Below, piece after piece: positions 13,249 through 23,627 of a stretch of DNA of 64,000 bases. Each line of letters begins with the position of its first letter. The first letter of the stretch is position 1. The notes beneath the pieces are model-generated. The model saw only the letters and a list, made by a program, of their open reading frames with translations, made no database searches and was not told the DNA's origin. The stretch spans positions 153,094 to 217,093 of the forward strand of contig NZ_KI421428.1 of NCBI RefSeq assembly GCF_000472285.1. Direction: 5' to 3'. This DNA is from Desulfuromonas sp. TF. Lineage in GTDB: Bacteria; Desulfobacterota; Desulfuromonadia; Desulfuromonadales; ATBO01. The translations under genes and the position numbers were made by a program.

Positions 13249-13761
13249 CGCCATCTCCAAATAAATAAACAAATTGCAATTAATACCAGAAATAAAATAA
13301 AAAGGCGGTAAAACTCATTGAAATTCAATATAAATTCAGTTCGGATAGATATCCGCCGATTATATGTATTTTAATGATTGATTGCAAGATCAGTTTTTTA
13401 CATGAAGAAGATGAGCAAGGGCTGTTTGAGGTTGTCGACCATGCCGGGAGCCCCTTCCTGATCCGCCCAATCTCCTTGAGGAGGCGGCTGCCGGTAGGGT
13501 TGCTCCCGCCCGAGGTATCGAGCACATTCAGCCTGTTGACAGTCCGGAAAGAAAAAATATGATTATGCAGGTCAGTTGCAATTGTGCTCAGTTCCGGCTC
13601 CGGCGGGGTCGCGACCGGTGCGAGCCGTCCAGTCTTTCTCGGAATATATCCTCTCCTTTGGAAAAACCTTCGCAGGAAACGGTGGAAAACTTCAGAATAC
13701 CTGATAATTCTATTATGAAGTCCAATGTGATGGTTTGCATAAACACGACAGGAGATCAACG
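13249..13761. other. 513-bp AT-richer intergenic region
   Basis: This divergent gap separates the CheY-like gene from htrA. It is clearly richer in A and T than its surroundings, especially at 13249-13390. A good sigma-70 promoter toward htrA lies at 13536-13563. The open frames here are not convincing; the longest (13325-13840, minus) runs into htrA. I see no RNA gene. Confidence 0.6.
13536..13563 (+). promoter_or_regulatory. sigma-70 promoter upstream of htrA
   Basis: Perfect -35 TTGACA (13536-13541), 16-nt spacer, -10 TATGAT (13558-13563, 5 of 6 matches). Transcription would start near 13570, leaving a leader of about 190 nt before the htrA ATG. Confidence 0.6.
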
Positions 13762-15252
13762 ATGAGAATTCTGCACAGCGCATCCTCAAGCGGGCTTCCA
13801 GCCCGGTGGATGGTCGCCATTCTGATTGTTCTGGCCGCATCCCCGTTCAGCCTTCAGCCCCTTAGTGTCTTCGCACAGGAGGAAGCCATCGAAAGCCTGC
13901 GCCAGACGGGTGAAGCGTTCCGGGCGGTGGCCAAGAAGGTGACGCCCGCCGTGGTCTTCGTCAAGGTGGAGAAACTGGTCAAGGGCCGTTCAACCGGCGA
14001 GATTCCCTTCCCCTTTGGGGGGCAGGGCCCTTTCGACGATGATTTTTTCCGTCGTTTCTTCGGCATTCCCATGCCGCAGCAACCCGACCAAGGTGAACCG
14101 CCTCAGCAACGCAGGTACGGGCAGGGCTCCGGTTTCATCATCTCGCCGGACGGTTTTATCCTGACCAACCACCATGTGGTCGGCGATGCCGACAAGGTCA
14201 CCGTGCAGATGCAGGACGGCAGCGAATTCACCGCCAAGGTCGTGGGCAACGACCCGCGATCGGATGTGGCGGTGATCAAGATCGATGCCGCCAACCTGCC
14301 GGTCCTGCAGCTGGGTGATTCCGATGCCCTGGAAGTCGGAGACTGGGTTCTGGCGGTGGGCAGCCCCTTCGGGCTTTCACATTCCATCACCGCCGGCATC
14401 GTCAGCGCCAAGGGGCGCAGCAGTGTGGGCATAGCCGATTATGAGAACTTCATCCAGACCGATGCGGCGATCAATCCGGGGAACTCGGGTGGGCCGCTCG
14501 TCGACGTGGACGGCCGGGTTGTGGGTATGAACACCGCCATTTTCAGCCGCAGCGGCGGCTACATGGGAATCGGCTTCGCCATTCCCATCAACATGATTAA
14601 AACGATCCGCGATCAGCTCATTGAACATGGCTCGGTGATTCGCGGCTATCTCGGGGTGGCTATCCAGAACCTGACATCCGAGCTTGCGCAAAGCTTCAAT
14701 CTCGAAGGGCAGAAGGGGGCACTGGTGGCTGGAGTCACCAAGGATTCTCCGGCTGAAAAGTCCGGCCTCAAACAGGGCGACGTCATCATCGAATTCGCCG
14801 GCAAGCCGGTGACCGAGATCGGCGATTTCCGCAATCAGGTGGCGATGACGCCTCCTGGGACGGAAAAGAAGATGACGGTCGTGCGGGACGGAAAGCGACA
14901 AACCCTTGAGGTCACCATCGGCACGCTGCCCGGGGAAGAGGAAGAGGGTAGGAAGGAACCGAGCGCGGTCAGCGAACTGGGCCTCACGGTGCAGCCCCTG
15001 ACCCGTGAACTGGCCCAGCAGCTCGGGTTCGTCGGGGAAGAGGGGGTGATCGTATCCGGGGTGTCTCCGGGTTCCGCCGCTGGGGAGGCGGGAATCCGTC
15101 CAGGATTCCTTGTTCAGGAGGTTAACCGGAGACCGGTGAAAACTCCGGCCGAATTCCGGCAGGCGGTGGCCAATACTCCCAAAGGCGGAACGGTCCTTCT
15201 TCTGCTGAGGGACGGAGAATCAAGCCTGTACGTGGCTCTCGAGATGGAATAA
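13762..15252 (+). CDS. htrA: periplasmic serine protease HtrA/DegP family
   Basis: 496 aa from the ATG at 13762 (AGGAG 7 nt upstream). A signal peptide spans about residues 1-40, with cleavage probably after SVFA. The trypsin-like domain has the catalytic triad His138 (LTNHHVVGD), Asp168 (RSDVAVIKID) and Ser242 (NPGNSGGPLVD). Two PDZ domains follow (about 270-360 and 400-490). It acts in the periplasm as protease and chaperone for misfolded envelope proteins. A Gly/Pro/Gln-rich loop around residues 75-120 matches the LA loop of DegP/DegQ. It sits next to the envelope operon but has its own promoter and a terminator-like hairpin. Confidence 0.95.
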   Translation: MRILHSASSSGLPARWMVAILIVLAASPFSLQPLSVFAQEEAIESLRQTGEAFRAVAKKVTPAVVFVKVEKLVKGRSTGEIPFPFGGQGPFDDDFFRRFFGIPMPQQPDQGEPPQQRRYGQGSGFIISPDGFILTNHHVVGDADKVTVQMQDGSEFTAKVVGNDPRSDVAVIKIDAANLPVLQLGDSDALEVGDWVLAVGSPFGLSHSITAGIVSAKGRSSVGIADYENFIQTDAAINPGNSGGPLVDVDGRVVGMNTAIFSRSGGYMGIGFAIPINMIKTIRDQLIEHGSVIRGYLGVAIQNLTSELAQSFNLEGQKGALVAGVTKDSPAEKSGLKQGDVIIEFAGKPVTEIGDFRNQVAMTPPGTEKKMTVVRDGKRQTLEVTIGTLPGEEEEGRKEPSAVSELGLTVQPLTRELAQQLGFVGEEGVIVSGVSPGSAAGEAGIRPGFLVQEVNRRPVKTPAEFRQAVANTPKGGTVLLLLRDGESSLYVALEME

Positions 15253-15354: not shown

Positions 15355-15996
15355 ATGCACCAGGAGGAAAAACGAATCTACATAGTCGGCCAGAACCGAC
15401 TTCAGAATGAAATGATGGCATCCTTCATCGGCAACAGTACGGAAGTGGATTGCCGGGTTGAGGACGACATCTGCAAAGTACCGCCGGGGAAGAGGAACGG
15501 ACGGGAATTGATACTATTTGACTGCCGTGATCAGGGAGCGGATGCTCTGCTCTCCGGACTCCGTTCGGAAAAGAAATTCACCGTGAACCATTTGGTGGCC
15601 CTGTTCAATGTCAGGGAGGCTATGGAGATCGAGAAAGAAACCCTTGCCTTGGGTGTCCGGGGATTTTTCTATGATCATGACGGATCCGCCACCCTTTTGA
15701 AAGGTGTCGATGTAATCTTCGACAACCAGCTCTGGCTCTCCCGAAAAAAATTTACCGAGGTCCTTGAACGTGGTTTCGACGGACCCACGGAAAGGAAGAA
15801 AACTTCGGGAGGACTGACGGCAAGAGAGACTGAAATCCTGAAGGCACTGGCTCTCGGCATTTCTAACGAGATGATCGCGAAGGAGCTCTGCATCAGTCCA
15901 CATACGGTTAAGACCCATATCTATCATATCTTCAGGAAGATCAGCGTCAAAAACCGCATCCAGGCTGCCCGCTGGGCGATGAATCATCTCCTCTAA
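15355..15996 (+). CDS. LuxR-family transcriptional regulator, CsgD-like
   Basis: 213 aa. The C-terminal 65 residues are a LuxR/FixJ helix-turn-helix (LTARETEILKALALGISNEM, then PHTVKTHIYHIFRKI). The N-terminal 130 residues resemble an atypical receiver of the CsgD type, with ILFDCRDQ in the phosphorylation region but no clear acidic pocket or KP lysine. The ATG at 15355 comes after a weak GGAAGG. It reads toward the envelope operon that begins 188 nt downstream and is the obvious candidate for its regulator. That link is inferred from position only. Confidence 0.82.
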   Translation: MHQEEKRIYIVGQNRLQNEMMASFIGNSTEVDCRVEDDICKVPPGKRNGRELILFDCRDQGADALLSGLRSEKKFTVNHLVALFNVREAMEIEKETLALGVRGFFYDHDGSATLLKGVDVIFDNQLWLSRKKFTEVLERGFDGPTERKKTSGGLTARETEILKALALGISNEMIAKELCISPHTVKTHIYHIFRKISVKNRIQAARWAMNHLL

Positions 15997-16184
15997 TCCC
16001 CCTTTTTCCTGATGGACTCTCCTCACATCCTGTGAAACAATATGCGGGATTTTTCGCATTGCTTTCCCGGCTGCAGGAGGTAAGCTGAAATTCAGGAGTT
16101 GGGCAGCCGGATTGCCGGGAACCCTCCGCTTGAGCGCTTTCATGTTTTGGCGCGCGCCGGAGATATATCTGCAAGGAGATTTCC

Positions 16185-16721
16185 ATGGGCTTGTTTGTGA
16201 GGGTGTTTATCACTTCTGTTTTCGTTCTGTTTTGCGGCTGCGCCCCCGACCCACCGCGCCGCCCCGAGGTGGTCTCCTATCTCGACGTGACCCAGAAACA
16301 GCAATATATCCAGAATGCCATGTCGACCCTGAAGATTTTTCACGAGGCAGCCATTGATCTCAGGTCCCGCCGCAAACCTATGGCCCGGAAGGAACTGGCC
16401 GAAGAGGTGGATCACTATATCGACGTGCAGGTGAAACCGATCATCGGGGATTTCGAGGCCAACCACAACCTGAAAACCCGTCTGCAGGTGGCCGAGCTGC
16501 AACTTCTCTGCGGCCTGGTCTATCTTGAGTTGAAGGAATACGATGAAGCGCTGGCGCTGCTGAACACCATGAAGAGACGCTACAGCGACAGCCCGGAATT
16601 ACTGAGCGCGGCCATCGACCGCAAATATATAGGTTTCAGAAATCTCGAGGACGGAATGCGGGTACTGAATGAGAGGATCTGGCGAGAATTTCTGACCTTT
16701 TCTCCCCCACCGTCTTCATGA
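16185..16721 (+). CDS. putative lipoprotein, first gene of the Exb/Tol-like envelope operon
   Basis: 178 aa. A short hydrophobic N-terminus ends in LFCGC, a plausible lipobox with Cys19 as the lipidated residue. The mature protein is helical and charged, with a TPR-like hairpin at about residues 100-135 (LQLLCGLVYLELKEYDEALALL). I do not recognise a named family. AAGGAG stands 6 nt before the ATG. The next gene begins 17 nt after its stop. From its place it is likely a partner of the proton-channel proteins at the inner face of the outer membrane or on the inner membrane. Confidence 0.75.
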   Translation: MGLFVRVFITSVFVLFCGCAPDPPRRPEVVSYLDVTQKQQYIQNAMSTLKIFHEAAIDLRSRRKPMARKELAEEVDHYIDVQVKPIIGDFEANHNLKTRLQVAELQLLCGLVYLELKEYDEALALLNTMKRRYSDSPELLSAAIDRKYIGFRNLEDGMRVLNERIWREFLTFSPPPSS

Positions 16722-16738
16722 TTCCAGGAGATTTATCC

Positions 16739-17413
16739 ATGGAGAACAACATTTTCAACGAACTGTCCGAGGCGATCATCAATTCACTCACCCATTTCAT
16801 CAATAACTTCTCAGGATTGCTCCAGATTATCGTCTATTTCACCATCGGCATCATTTTTTTCTACGCTCTGGTTAAATGCGGACAGGCCCTTCGATCGCTG
16901 GCCCGGTTCAACTTCGCACGTCTTGATGAAAAAGGCGTTTCCACCTTCGATTCGCTCGATGATCGGGCTCCTCTGGCGGTGGTGGCCGCCTCTTTCTTCT
17001 GCAGGACCAAAAAGCATTACCTCCTGGAGAGGAAAAACGATCTGCACTCCTCAAAGACAATCCCTCCGGACGGATTCATCCGGGATGCGGCTTTTCAGTA
17101 CAGCGAACGCTACTTTGAGGAAAAATTTCTCGAACCGATCTCCCTGACAGCAAACCTGATGCCTTCTCTCGGCTTTATCGGCACCATCATCGGAATGGTG
17201 GTGCATTTCCTCTCCAACTCCGGTTCCCTCAACAGTAATCTCACTGTCGTCGGCATAGCCACTGCCCTCTATACCACCTTTATCGGCCTGGTCTGCTATA
17301 CGATCCTTGAATTCATGCTCAAGGTGCTGTCTTCTCTCGGCCGACGGCGTATCGACGAGGGGCTTGCGGCGGTGGCCGGCCTGCGGCCGGTTTCGGAAAG
17401 AAAGGCGGCCTGA
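16739..17413 (+). CDS. MotA/TolQ/ExbB-family proton channel protein
   Basis: 224 aa from the ATG at 16739 (AGGAG 8 nt upstream; the ATG at 16718 has none). Three membrane segments at about residues 26-47, 137-158 and 168-190 enclose a roughly 90-residue cytoplasmic domain, the ExbB/TolQ topology. The signature is clear: NLMPSLGFIGTIIGMVVHFL, then IATALYTTFIGL, with the Thr residues that line the channel. With the ExbD-like protein it should use proton motive force to drive the TonB-like protein. It is not beside tol-pal or a TonB receptor, so it is probably neither the housekeeping Tol nor a normal Ton system. Confidence 0.88.
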   Translation: MENNIFNELSEAIINSLTHFINNFSGLLQIIVYFTIGIIFFYALVKCGQALRSLARFNFARLDEKGVSTFDSLDDRAPLAVVAASFFCRTKKHYLLERKNDLHSSKTIPPDGFIRDAAFQYSERYFEEKFLEPISLTANLMPSLGFIGTIIGMVVHFLSNSGSLNSNLTVVGIATALYTTFIGLVCYTILEFMLKVLSSLGRRRIDEGLAAVAGLRPVSERKAA

Positions 17414-17416
17414 CCG

Positions 17417-17872
17417 ATGCGTCGGCGGAAAAACAACATGTGGCTTTTCGCCTTCACCGATCTCGCATTTCTGCTGCTGATCAGCCTGAGCCTGATTCCA
17501 AGCGCTCCCGAAGACATCTCCCTGCGTTTTGCTGAAATGAATCTGCCGGTCGTGCCGGACAGCCGGAATCTGCAACCCGTTCGGGAGCAGCAGGAAGTCT
17601 GGGAACTTCAAATTTTCGCCATAGGCCCCCAACATTCCGTACCCTTTCAGTTGGTAAGGTCCGGGGAGAAAGAAGGGATGGCCCTCGATGAAGGGAATCT
17701 TATTCCGGCTCTGGAGAGATTGCGGGAACGCCAGTCACGGCCGGTGCTGCTGCCTGAGAAGACCTCGCTGAGCCAGGACTTTCTTTTCGCCGCCGCGGCG
17801 ATGGCGAAGGTCTGGTCTGCGGCGGACAGCCGGACCATTGTCAAGCCGGTTGATACGGGAGCGACCGAGTGA
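17417..17872 (+). CDS. ExbD/TolR-like protein, diverged
   Basis: 151 aa. A basic N-terminus is followed by one membrane segment carrying an aspartate, FAFTDLAFLLLISLSLIP (Asp15), at the position of the essential proton-carrying Asp of ExbD/TolR. The periplasmic part (about 125 residues) has a segment (LDEGNLIPALERLRERQSRPVLL) that recalls the ExbD/TolR periplasmic fold, but it is otherwise far from textbook members. It begins 3 nt after the channel gene and overlaps the next gene by 4 nt (GTGA), so the pair is almost surely co-translated. Confidence 0.75.
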   Translation: MRRRKNNMWLFAFTDLAFLLLISLSLIPSAPEDISLRFAEMNLPVVPDSRNLQPVREQQEVWELQIFAIGPQHSVPFQLVRSGEKEGMALDEGNLIPALERLRERQSRPVLLPEKTSLSQDFLFAAAAMAKVWSAADSRTIVKPVDTGATE

Positions 17873-19263
17873 TTTCCGGAAACGATCTTTACGGATGGGG
17901 GGTATTCGATATCCCGATGGAACGCGAACTGCGCTCCGCTGGATCTGCGGCCTCGCCGCAGGGTCCCCTTAAGGCCGAACCCGTCCGGAAGCTCTTCAAC
18001 GACGTAAACTGGAAGGCGCTGGGATCGAGTTTTCTGCTGACCCTTCTCTGCCTGGTCGGCCTCCTCATGCTGGGCAGAAATCGGCCTGAGTCTCCGGTTT
18101 CGCCCGAGCCGCAACCGGTCGAAGTGGCCGTGCGCATCTTCGAGGAGGTTCCGAGTATTCCCCCGCAGGATGCTTCCGAACCTCCGGCGCCGGCGCCGCA
18201 AGAAATCGTGGTGGCTGTTCCGGAGGATTCGCCGACCATTCCTGAAATCCGGGTCACACCGCCGCCGGTGCCTCAAAAAACGGTGCGAGCAGAGCCCGTA
18301 AAGCCCCCCGAACCGGCGCGGATCCAGCCCCCTCCGGTGAAGATTCAGATCCCTCCGCCGTCTACTCTCAGGCCGACCCGGGCCGAACCGCCGCAGGAGC
18401 GGCCCGCTCTTCCGGAGCAGAAGGCACCCGTAATTTCCCGGCAGGAAACGGTTCTGCCGGAGCCCTCACGAACGGACTATGAGGAGAGAACAGGCACGGC
18501 TTCAGAGAGTTTGCCGCAGCAGCAAGCCGCGCTGCGAAAAGAAATGGCTTCCGTCGATCTTGGCGCAGGACCGCAGACGGCGCGTGTCGCCGAGAGGGGA
18601 ACGGCCGAAGCCGCCTTGCCGGAGTCGCCCGCAATAGCCCTTGAACGGTCGGACGGCACCGATCTGGGAGGAGCGGCGCCCCGGATGAACGACCGATATG
18701 AAAAGCTCGCGGATTCATCGTCCGTGCCCCTTCCTTCTCCTCGAAGAACCGCTGTTCCGGACAGCGGCGGAGAGGAGGATATGCTGCCGAAAGCGACCGC
18801 TTTCGCTTCACCGGGTTCCCGTAAGATGGTTGCCATGCTTCCTGCCGACCGCAGTGATTCTTCTTTCGGCGGTATCGGTCGGAATGCGGACCCTGATCTT
18901 ACCGGACCGGCTGTGCGGACGGCGTCATTGCCGCATGACCGGCATGGTGCGGAAGCTCCAGGGAAATCCTACGATTTTCTCGATCTGGTCGGACCGGCGG
19001 ATCTCGACCGCGCGGTCATGGTGAATCTTAATCAGCTGCAGACCTGTCTCGATCCGGAAGAGGAACTGAAGCTCAAGACCCGGCTGGCCGCCATGCTCAG
19101 CCGTCCCGGTCAGTGCCGCGCCGGCGGGGTGGTGTTCGATATCCGGCAGCCTGAATCGGCTTATTCCATCCACATCGACCTCTATAACTACGAACAGAGA
19201 GAATTTCAAGATCGCTGCTCGGCCCTCCGGCTTGCGGTCTATTCATGTGACGCGAGGAGATGA
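17869..19263 (+). CDS. TonB/TolA-like envelope protein with a Cys-containing C-terminal domain
   Basis: 464 aa, GTG start overlapping the ExbD-like stop. A cytoplasmic N-terminus (about 50 residues) leads to a single membrane helix (residues 51-69). A long Pro/Glu-rich region follows (about 75-190, rich in PPPV, PEP and PQE), then a low-complexity stretch to about 360. This is the layout of TonB and TolA, with a rigid linker across the periplasm. The last 95 residues form a compact domain with four cysteines (QTCLDPE, GQCRAGG, DRCSAL, YSCDARR) and do not look like the TonB C-terminal domain, so the target is probably not a standard TonB box receptor. Confidence 0.75.
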   Translation: MISGNDLYGWGVFDIPMERELRSAGSAASPQGPLKAEPVRKLFNDVNWKALGSSFLLTLLCLVGLLMLGRNRPESPVSPEPQPVEVAVRIFEEVPSIPPQDASEPPAPAPQEIVVAVPEDSPTIPEIRVTPPPVPQKTVRAEPVKPPEPARIQPPPVKIQIPPPSTLRPTRAEPPQERPALPEQKAPVISRQETVLPEPSRTDYEERTGTASESLPQQQAALRKEMASVDLGAGPQTARVAERGTAEAALPESPAIALERSDGTDLGGAAPRMNDRYEKLADSSSVPLPSPRRTAVPDSGGEEDMLPKATAFASPGSRKMVAMLPADRSDSSFGGIGRNADPDLTGPAVRTASLPHDRHGAEAPGKSYDFLDLVGPADLDRAVMVNLNQLQTCLDPEEELKLKTRLAAMLSRPGQCRAGGVVFDIRQPESAYSIHIDLYNYEQREFQDRCSALRLAVYSCDARR

Positions 19264-19269
19264 AAATCG

Positions 19270-21234
19270 ATGAATATACCTTATCGCCTTATCCTTCTGT
19301 TAGTTCTCTTCCTGGGATTCGGCTGCCGGGTTGAGGCCGCCGAGACTCCCGCCCGGATGTGGGACAACCTTCTCGATATCACCCCCAGGTTCAGCTGGTA
19401 TCCGCGGCAGGATCTGCAGAATCTGCTGGAGATCAAATCCGAAGAGTACGGGCAGAGTCTGGAAGAATACAGGGCGGAACTCCTGCAGGAAGTTACCGGG
19501 GGGCGTCCTGCTGCGGCCCGGGTCCGACCCGAACAATTTGTGACCGGGCTGCCGTGGCGGCAGTACTACCGATTGTCGCTGGCGGAGTTCTGCCTCTTTC
19601 TCTCAACCGACAGGGCGGAGCACCTGCAGAACGCCCAAAGCGCCCTTTCCTTTCTGGAACAGAAGAGCGATCAGCCGGAGATTGAATTCTGGAATCATCT
19701 CTACCGTACTCATCAAGCAGCACTTTCCAAGGATAGAGAAGCCTTCATCGGGCTGGTATATCATCTCTGGCGAAACATCGTCATGCGTTATGAGACCGAA
19801 AGCCTGGCGTTCCCTTCGGAAGCAGCGCGCGCCGGATTCGTGAGGCACCTTCCCTATCTCTACGAGAATCTGGCTCACCTTGTGCTCCGCAAGGCCATTC
19901 TGGAGCAGGAAATCCCGGAGCTTTATCCTCTTGTGCCCCTTGTCCTCGATATCCAGCAGAAGCTGACGGTCGAAAACGGTTACAAAAGCATGGTCGACCA
20001 GATCGTCGAACGGATGCAGGGGTCGAATTCGGACAACAGGAATCTCAATTTTGCCGTGGCCCTTCTCGAAGCGACGGCCAAGAGGTACGAGTTCGAGGAC
20101 GAAAAGGATGCCTCACTCCTGGCATCCAAATTCAACCTGGCCCGCAGATATCTTCTGCTGGCCTACGACTGGGCCGATACGGACAAGGGACGGACCGTGA
20201 TCCTGAGTCAGCACATGGGTTTCCTGAATTACGTCGTCCGCCGCCTCAATGATCCTTCAGATCCCGTGGCGTCCAATCCCTTTTTTCGGAACATTCCGGT
20301 CATGGCGAACGATCATATCGAGAAGCTGGTCCCCTTCTTTCATCGCCTTGCGGCGCCGGCTGTGAGCTCGGAAGGAGAGGGGCTGGCGGACGGCTTCGAG
20401 GACCGGGAAACCTATCTTCAGGCGATGCATCAGCTCCTGGATTCCTTTGCCAAGTTGAGCGTCGTCCTGTCGGAATTCTACAAAGCGGACCGCGCGCAAG
20501 AAGGCGCCGATATCTTTCCGGCCGCCAGGCCGCTGGAGCAGTACTGCGAGCTCTTTGATCGCTATGCCCGGATAAATTCGGTAATTCTCCCCGACAGCGC
20601 CTACTTCATGGCGGCCTATGCTGCCCGCGAACTGGGTGAACTTTATCGGGAGCGCGCCCGTTACAGCGTCGACAACCACGCCGACGATCTAGCTTTTGCC
20701 TATCAGATGCAAGCGGCCGAAATCTTTCCTCTCGATCTTCCCGGAATCCTGCAGATGGCCTTCCAGTGCTCCCTCAACGGGCAGGTGCAGGATTATTTCC
20801 GCAACTCGCGTCCGCTGGCGGCCCGCCTGAGAGTCTCCCACGGCGCCGCCACCTGGAGCGCCCGCAATCCCACGGACTTCAACGATCTGGTCGAACTGGT
20901 TCCAGTGGTGGTTCCCGAGGTCGTCGACAATGCCTTCACCCTCCTCGGTCATGTCTCCGGCGAAGCGACGGAGGATGTCCTCTTCTCCCGCGCGGTCTCC
21001 ATGGCCCGGGCGATTGAAAAAGGCCAAAGCTCCAACCCGCACGACAAAACCGAAGAGACCCTGGCGGCGATCGGCCGGGGGCAACCGGGCGAGACGATTC
21101 TTCCTTTCTATGAACTGAAAAGCCAGCTCTTCGGCGCTCCGGACAGCCCGGTTCACACGTACATCCGCACTCTCTACAACGAGGTTCCCTACGAGAACCA
21201 CCAGTACGTTGCCCTTTTCCGCGATCTCCAATAG
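19270..21234 (+). CDS. large secreted helical protein of the Exb/Tol-like operon
   Basis: 654 aa, last gene of the operon, 6 nt after the TonB-like gene, with GAGGAG upstream. The N-terminus is a signal peptide (LILLLVLFLGFGC). It may be processed as a lipoprotein at Cys19, although GFGC is a poor lipobox, or by signal peptidase I after VEA. The rest is largely helical with many Tyr, Leu and Glu and no long repeats, in the style of TPR/Sel1-like solenoids (for example MAAYAARELGELYRERARYS). I recognise no named family. Its position makes it the likely periplasmic or outer-membrane client of the energised complex. Confidence 0.75.
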   Translation: MNIPYRLILLLVLFLGFGCRVEAAETPARMWDNLLDITPRFSWYPRQDLQNLLEIKSEEYGQSLEEYRAELLQEVTGGRPAAARVRPEQFVTGLPWRQYYRLSLAEFCLFLSTDRAEHLQNAQSALSFLEQKSDQPEIEFWNHLYRTHQAALSKDREAFIGLVYHLWRNIVMRYETESLAFPSEAARAGFVRHLPYLYENLAHLVLRKAILEQEIPELYPLVPLVLDIQQKLTVENGYKSMVDQIVERMQGSNSDNRNLNFAVALLEATAKRYEFEDEKDASLLASKFNLARRYLLLAYDWADTDKGRTVILSQHMGFLNYVVRRLNDPSDPVASNPFFRNIPVMANDHIEKLVPFFHRLAAPAVSSEGEGLADGFEDRETYLQAMHQLLDSFAKLSVVLSEFYKADRAQEGADIFPAARPLEQYCELFDRYARINSVILPDSAYFMAAYAARELGELYRERARYSVDNHADDLAFAYQMQAAEIFPLDLPGILQMAFQCSLNGQVQDYFRNSRPLAARLRVSHGAATWSARNPTDFNDLVELVPVVVPEVVDNAFTLLGHVSGEATEDVLFSRAVSMARAIEKGQSSNPHDKTEETLAAIGRGQPGETILPFYELKSQLFGAPDSPVHTYIRTLYNEVPYENHQYVALFRDLQ

Positions 21235-21528: not shown

Positions 21529-21945
21529 TCAGCTCGCAGCCTGCGGGTGTGCTTTGAGAAAGACGCCGAACTTTACGTCGATGTCCTTGATATGACGAAT
21601 GATCCACTTGAGCAGGATCTGATTGGTGGAGATCACGAGGTGGGCCGACACACCCTTCTCCTTGAGGTCGGCCTTGAGAGCGTCGAGCCGCCCGATGAAG
21701 TAAAGGTGCTGTGACTTTTGCTCCTCGAGGCCGGGGTAGGCGCAGAGTTCCATCAGACGCTCTTCCTCCCGGAAGTGGATCACGACGTAGCTGTCGAGAA
21801 AACCGATCAGTTCCTCGATCCGCTCCTTCCCGCTGGCCCGTCTGCAGGCTTCGATCAAGTTGTCGAAGCGGCGGAAGAGTTCGCGGTGCTGCTCGTCGAT
21901 TACAGCGTGGCCGACCGCCAATTTTTCAGTCCATTCGAGGGCCAT
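21529..21945 (-). CDS. bacteriohemerythrin-like protein with one iron ligand replaced
   Basis: 138 aa from the ATG at 21945 (GGGAG 8 nt upstream; a GTG three codons earlier is less likely). The four-helix hemerythrin ligands are His20 (DEQH), His57 and Glu61 (HFREE), His80, His118 and Asp123 (HIKDID). The His expected four residues before His80 is Gln76 (EEQKSQH). The sister protein at 23027 keeps a His at exactly that position. Di-iron O2 binding may therefore be altered. Hemerythrins of this group bind or sense O2 or NO in anaerobes. The gene is alone, with its own terminator-like hairpin. Confidence 0.85.
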   Translation of the reverse strand: MALEWTEKLAVGHAVIDEQHRELFRRFDNLIEACRRASGKERIEELIGFLDSYVVIHFREEERLMELCAYPGLEEQKSQHLYFIGRLDALKADLKEKGVSAHLVISTNQILLKWIIRHIKDIDVKFGVFLKAHPQAAS

Positions 21946-22051
21946 GTTGTTCACTCCCTTCTCTGTTGCTGCTCAAAAGTTACTAAATTAGTCCTAATTG
22001 TAGGCATTCCACCGCCGCTGGTCAAGGGAGAATTAGCCCGACCCTATAGAA

Positions 22052-23026: not shown

Positions 23027-23431
23027 TTAATCATTCTGCTTCAGGTGCGCGGCCAGTCTGGTGTCCACCTCCCGTATATGCTCGGTCAGCCAGTAGATCA
23101 GCGCCTTGTTGGTCCGGATAATCACCTGGATGGTCGGTCCTGTCGCCGCCAGCTCCTGCTTCAGACCGGCCAGCTGCGCGACAAAGTAGCGGTGTGCCTG
23201 TTTGTGGCGCTCCGCCTCAGGATAGCCGGAGCGATCCATCAATCCCTCCTCGTCCCGGAAGTGGCGGTTGACGTAAAGATCGAGGAAGGCGAAAAGCTCC
23301 CGCAGGTGATCAGGGCCGCGGCGTTCCTCGCAGGCGACGATAAAGCGTTCGAACTGATCGAAAAGGCTCCTGTGCTGATCGTCGATCAGCGGATACCCGA
23401 CGGAAAGGTCTTCGGACCACTGCAGTGACAT
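23027..23431 (-). CDS. bacteriohemerythrin
   Basis: 134 aa from the ATG at 23431 (AAGGAG 8 nt upstream). All expected iron ligands are present: His20 (DDQH), His57 and Glu61 (HFRDEE), His76 and His80 (RHKQAH), then HIREVD near residue 118. It should form an oxo-bridged di-iron O2-binding site in the cytoplasm. The rhomboid gene follows 18 nt downstream. It aligns position for position with the hemerythrin at 21529, so the two probably arose by duplication. Confidence 0.92.
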   Translation of the reverse strand: MSLQWSEDLSVGYPLIDDQHRSLFDQFERFIVACEERRGPDHLRELFAFLDLYVNRHFRDEEGLMDRSGYPEAERHKQAHRYFVAQLAGLKQELAATGPTIQVIIRTNKALIYWLTEHIREVDTRLAAHLKQND

Positions 23432-23627
23432 GGCGGAACTCCTTGAGTGAAAAAATATAACGGACATATAATCATTTATTCTCCCCGGAGTCAAAGGTTG
23501 ACACATTCGATTACATTCGATGTAAAAACTTGAACCATCATCATTGAAATCCCGGGAAAATCCCTTTAGTATCTAGCCGGTTGAAAAACTCAATTCGGGC
23601 CCGCACGGGCTTCATAGGAGAACAGCT

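Follow-up and report, generated by a model that had tools for sequence, protein, structure and literature searches.

A five-gene operon in Desulfuromonas sp. TF

The stretch of DNA analysed here (hereafter the window) comprises 64,000 nt of the Desulfuromonas sp. TF genome (GCF_000472285.1), corresponding to positions 153,094-217,093 on the forward strand of contig NZ_KI421428.1. ORF coordinates place five close-set genes between positions 16185 and 21234, encoding in this order a lipoprotein, an ExbB-like protein, an ExbD-like protein, a TonB-like rod and a 654-aa protein (Table 1). The lipoprotein and ExbB-like genes are separated by 17 nt and the ExbB-like and ExbD-like genes by 3 nt; the rod gene, which begins with a GTG start codon, overlaps the ExbD-like gene by 4 nt and is followed after 6 nt by the gene for the 654-aa protein. 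An ORF check returned the same coordinates and spacing as the original prediction. The ExbB-like gene has an alternative in-frame ATG at 16718, and starts in most relatives fall near the 16739 position. A sigma-70 scan revealed no promoter-like site on the operon strand, and a literature search, with most subscription journals outside its reach, found no published description of the five-gene operon.

Table 1. Coordinates of the operon genes, the upstream regulator and the fused motor genes (window positions unless a locus is given).
Feature	Position	Strand	Basis and remarks
LuxR/CsgD-type regulator	15355-15996	+	NCBIfam CsgD model; probably outside the conserved unit
Small exported protein, 178 aa	16185-16721	+	Lipobox Cys19, one TPR-like stretch
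ExbB/TolQ/MotA-family channel protein, diverged type, 224 aa	16739-17413	+	PF01618, hhalign
ExbD-like protein, 151 aa	17417-17872	+	One N-terminal helix, invariant Asp15 (alignment A3)
TonB-like rod, 464 aa	17869-19263	+	YGWG tail, one transmembrane helix, Pro-rich stretch, end domain
Rod end domain with four cysteines, last ~102 residues (about the last 85 ordered)	18955-19260	+	Alignment A1, model
All-helical exported protein, 654 aa, final operon gene	19270-21234	+	Model, alignment A2
ExbB-ExbD fusion gene, 434-439 aa	L101:1607-2911; L100:4784-6103

A putative diverged ExbB/ExbD-type motor

The channel protein belongs to the Pfam family MotA_ExbB (PF01618; 8.4e-10, 38.9 bits against a cut-off of 22.9) and aligns with canonical ExbB/TolQ proteins with an hhalign probability of 96.4%, while its profile weakly matches solved ExbB, TolQ, PomA and MotA structures in a search of PDB sequences. 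The ExbD-like protein of the window has no significant match in Pfam or NCBIfam, scores 0.6% by hhalign as an ExbD/TolR-family member, and its profile retrieved nothing meaningful from PDB sequences. Its Asp15, already described as intact, is invariant in 14 of 14 aligned sequences, placing a candidate proton-binding Asp in a single N-terminal helix, and its relative at locus L102 matches PF02472 at an E value of 0.0042, below the cut-off. The putative assignment as an ExbD-like protein rests on this topology, on gene position and on the one sub-threshold match in a relative.

A TonB-like rod with a four-cysteine end domain

The rod has the TonB-like layout first proposed for it, with a single hydrophobic segment around residue 50 and a Pro-rich stretch after it, and the four cysteines noted in its C-terminus all lie within the last 100 residues. 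The end domain is conserved (alignment A1). Among 30 copies compared, cysteines 1 and 3 are kept in every complete copy, cysteine 2 in all but one (shifted by two columns in five) and cysteine 4 in all but two (shifted by one column in two). This pattern, including the joint loss of cysteines 2 and 4 from the rod end of locus L041, suggests that two disulfides, C1-C3 and C2-C4, probably stabilise the domain.

The original prediction held that this C-terminus resembles neither TonB nor TolA, and three lines of evidence agree with it. The whole window protein has no significant Pfam or NCBIfam family, and the 12 rod ends yielded no TonB_C, TolA or vWA match in Pfam. Compared with canonical TonB ends of related genomes, a set weakened by a few rows in the wrong frame, the rod end scored 0.1% by hhalign, whereas a control between halves of the canonical set, unaffected by those rows, scored 98.5%. 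Finally, a PF03544 search of the Desulfuromonas sp. TF genome recovered one canonical TonB_C protein elsewhere (L121) and not the operon rod. The rod thus does not end in a standard TonB_C domain, the finding that would have reduced the locus to a variant Ton locus. TonB and TolA ends follow the order beta-beta-alpha-beta. The end-domain model (12 sequences, pLDDT 78) predicts a different order, helix-strand-strand-strand-helix; Foldseek found no match to it in the PDB at an E value of 0.001 or better among the best 50 listed, and the rod-end profile found nothing meaningful among PDB sequences.

The cytoplasmic tail of the rod carries a conserved YGxG motif, YGWG in the window copy. The tail reads YGWGVxxIPMPR before the helix in Desulfuromonadales, YGHGGTRLExI in other families and YGRGGAKLIMPRP in L102, and the motif was not seen in the copies of locus L054 or family f65. 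Rod helices of known TonB and TolA bind the motor through a His within an S-x3-H motif (PMC12204202). No such His is found in the helix of the window copy, and among the copies listed S-x3-H occurs only in L054; since most rods are without this residue, their coupling to the motor, if there is any, must work in another way. The YGxG tail was considered as a substitute for the lost His and dropped, as the copy at locus L101 has neither.

Two exported proteins

Gly18-Cys19 of the small protein is invariant in 12 of 12 aligned members and the window copy lacks an Asp at +2, which makes it a probable outer-membrane lipoprotein. Its earlier description as a lipoprotein holds for most Desulfuromonadales copies, in which the lipobox is clear, but a simple pattern missed the lipobox in several other lineages. 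The 654-aa protein is 39-53% identical to its relatives in alignment A2 and 62% identical to the closest, from locus L052, and its model (pLDDT 84) consists entirely of helices. This model resembles helical-repeat proteins without a significant match, Foldseek returning none at an E value of 0.001 or better among the best 50 listed. The claim that neither exported protein belongs to a known family stands for the 654-aa protein, which has no significant Pfam or NCBIfam family and no TPR family match; the small protein shows TPR similarity in Pfam, at sub-threshold level only. Profiles of both proteins found nothing meaningful among PDB sequences.

The five genes are conserved as a unit

When GTDB genomes were searched with the channel protein, 12 loci were returned, mostly labelled Desulfuromonadales or Pelobacter, and a search with the large protein matched 20 of 147 genomes of relatives. 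Profile searches detected the large-protein family in 38 of 277 genomes of the class and in 6 of 395 genomes of a phylum sample, three of these six belonging to two other classes; repeating the phylum-wide search from the genome added only the genome of L045 to the known matches. Gene calling and profile matching recovered the order small protein, ExbB, ExbD, rod and large protein wherever the contig allows. This order has a patchy distribution that spans the Desulfuromonadales, further families of the same class and two other classes. Because the same order is found in so many genomes, the grouping is more than a coincidence of neighbouring genes, and the second condition set for refuting the original prediction does not hold either.

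The rod-end profile matched 20 of the 277 class genomes, all within the set carrying the large-protein family, in one copy each and adjoining the large gene. Diverged copies in families f22 and f23, missed by this profile, were caught by profiles run on the loci themselves, and the rod-end domain was found only beside the 654-aa family. The large gene is tandemly duplicated in some f23 genera, where the second copy is longer and more diverged (L047:10530-13520, L048:10671-13256, L094:7487-10072 and L096:3446-6085).

One departure from the common arrangement concerns the motor. At L101, from the class of family f65, a 255-aa ExbB (3.6e-25), a 434-aa ExbB-ExbD fusion and a 168-aa canonical ExbD (2.9e-15) are flanked by the usual partners, with the small protein on one side and, on the other, a rod ending in the four-cysteine domain followed by the large protein. 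Locus L100 has the same pair of ExbB and ExbB-ExbD fusion. At L054 the rod end stands behind a TonB-type N-terminus, the one bearing S-x3-H, and no derived ExbB was found in this genome (79% complete). The output module thus stays constant while the motor changes, the strongest indication that its three components, the small protein, the rod end and the large protein, behave as one unit and work together.

Neighbouring genes point to the outer-membrane/cell-wall interface

A sixth gene recurs at the locus and encodes an outer-membrane barrel of the OmpA/OprF type, whose C-terminal part consists of an AMIN domain, an OmpA domain or thrombospondin type 3 repeats. The barrel gene lies directly downstream of the operon at L052 (54 nt), L092 (22 nt) and L093 (overlapping), upstream at L094, L095, L098, L049 and L036, and convergent with it at L047, L048 and L096. 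Using a profile built from the locus copies and per-genome counts read by hand, we found it at the locus in 11 of 22 genomes, against 0.35 expected by random placement, and in 8 of 16 genera, which are not fully independent, against 0.26 expected. In Desulfuromonas sp. TF the barrel matches lie away from the operon and none is in the window; with this absence and that from about half of the loci, the barrel may be facultative or an unrelated neighbour. At L099 an AMIN domain (residues 754-841) is fused to the large protein itself, and in family f4 a gene for a Tsp/Prc-type S41 protease lies directly upstream of the operon. A C-terminal processing protease of Pseudomonas acts on cell-wall hydrolases together with a TPR lipoprotein (PMC8764530). 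Together, the barrel, the AMIN fusion and the S41 protease point to the interface between outer membrane and cell wall.

The regulator preceding the operon matches the NCBIfam CsgD model at 1.5e-31, with 110 bits against a cut-off of 250. A CsgD-like regulator is thus present directly upstream in the window, as first described, but no homologue lies near the operon in relatives, and we discarded it as a conserved part of the system. Its linker region contains the letters WLSR, which presumably correspond to the c-di-GMP-binding motif W[FLM][ST]R of VpsT.

Comparison with known envelope motors

The operon lies apart from the other motors of its genome. TolB and Pal are absent in and around it, as first noted; together with a TolQ-type channel and TPR (CpoB-like) proteins, TolB and a Pal-type protein are encoded elsewhere (L055). 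A separate ExbB-ExbD pair is found at L056, and a further ExbB gene stands amid TPR genes at L057. The latter cluster, on another contig (L057:8927-18001), encodes an ExbB-type protein, TPR proteins of 230, 667 and 1075 aa, two of which have lipoprotein-like starts, and a barrel-like protein, and may be another energised system resembling Glt or Ttp.

Like Tol-Pal, the operon combines a TolQ-family channel, a TolR-like protein with a helix Asp and a one-helix rod with a TPR-like protein, a lipoprotein in many bacteria, and would act at the outer-membrane/cell-wall interface; it differs in having no TolB, Pal or TolA_C, and in a rod end with four cysteines and another strand order. With Ton it shares the motor and the Pro-rich rod, but not the TonB_C (PF03544) end. 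The recently described vWA force transducers also place a TolA/TonB-like rod, with an end domain unrelated to TonB or TolA, beside motor genes and a TPR gene (PMC12204202). The end domain of the operon rod, in contrast, has ~85 ordered residues, four cysteines and no vWA match, and the motor-binding His is missing from most of these rods.

The operon might instead be a specialised TonB system, in which the rod energises uptake through a receptor encoded elsewhere and the small and large exported proteins serve as helpers comparable to TtpB and TtpD. The Vibrio TonB2 locus is laid out similarly, its motor genes flanked by first and last genes for exported helper proteins, the last one TPR-like, and both TtpB and TtpD are essential for TonB2-dependent iron uptake (PMC6957404). 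We consider this reading unlikely, as the rod has no TonB_C end, the operon has no TtpC (that is, no second ExbB-type gene), and its first and last genes match neither DUF3450 nor a TPR family above cut-off. The reported lack of a TonB-dependent receptor nearby also withstood scrutiny, none being noted adjoining the operon in the window or among the neighbours scanned in relatives.

Alternatively, the system could resemble Agl-Glt and serve at the cell surface or in motility, the motor moving the rod and large periplasmic proteins against surface components. The Glt core, reported in Geobacter as one cluster, contains the same classes of parts, namely a TolQR-type motor, the exported TPR proteins GltD and GltE, and the TonB-like GltG with a cytoplasmic part (PMC3169522), and the upstream regulator of Desulfuromonas sp. 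TF is CsgD/VpsT-like. That regulator is not conserved, however, and the operon has one ExbD-like gene where Glt has two, a rod without FHA or TonB_C domains, and no GltC-like gene, so that an Agl-Glt identity appears improbable. A Zorya-kind anti-phage system with a MotA/ExbB motor is scarcely credible and was rejected, since the channel protein matches ZorA weakly (best 0.00094) and only over the shared channel core, the other four proteins match no Zorya model (no ZorB or further Zor proteins), and the partners are exported.

On these comparisons the operon lacks defining features of Ton, Tol-Pal, Ttp, Agl-Glt and the vWA transducers, yet appears to run on the same kind of motor.

A proposed force transducer with its own output end

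We regard it as reasonably probable that the operon encodes a Ton/Tol-type force transducer that is driven by protons and spans the envelope, with an output end of its own, a target of the OmpA/OprF class and a role at the outer-membrane/cell-wall interface. This reading draws on the conserved gene order, the co-occurrence of rod end and large protein, channel homology, Asp15 and the motor swap at L101, as well as on the absence of a TonB_C end, the barrel association, the AMIN fusion at L099, the S41 protease upstream in f4, and the location of the Tol-Pal locus and canonical TonB elsewhere in the same genome. From these sequence features we infer the use of the proton gradient, the contacts between the proteins and the cellular function; the prediction of a force-transmitting machine with a new partner gains support from the non-TonB_C rod end and from the co-occurrence of the five genes in relatives.

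In the proposed mechanism, the ExbB-like and ExbD-like proteins would form an inner-membrane motor driven by protons. This motor would move or pull the rod anchored beside it, the Pro-rich stretch of which would cross the periplasm. The rod end, probably braced by its two disulfides, would engage the helical 654-aa protein and the small TPR-like lipoprotein, which would stand in place of a TonB-dependent receptor or TolB. Force would then pass through these two proteins to an OmpA/OprF-class, cell-wall-linked outer-membrane protein as the most likely target, and by analogy with Tol-Pal the probable job of the system would be to mobilise or tension contacts between the outer membrane and the cell wall.

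To our knowledge, few families of envelope force transducers have been described so far. A 2025 survey argues that more await discovery (PMC12204202). There is about an even chance that the operon represents one, a distinct proton-driven family separate from Ton, Tol, Glt and vWA, with a disulfide-bearing end domain, a helical partner of ~650 aa, a TPR-like exported protein and a motor that has given way to a canonical ExbB/ExbD set on one or more occasions, acting on OmpA-class outer-membrane and cell-wall-linked proteins. The system has clear boundaries, a new output domain and, in the motor swap, a natural experiment for telling apart the component that chooses the target from the one that just provides force. 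OmpA-class barrels, repeatedly linked to the locus, and the AMIN fusion offer a concrete, testable partner at the outer-membrane/cell-wall interface.

Further genes flank the operon in the window. A gene for a DegP/HtrA-type periplasmic protease, recognised by eye, precedes the regulator (13735-15252), as a different periplasmic protease (Tsp/Prc, S41) precedes the operon in family f4. Just downstream of the operon, two neighbouring genes on the minus strand (21529-21954 and 23027-23506) encode similar small proteins that resemble hemerythrins by eye, from their HFREEE and HxxF motifs.
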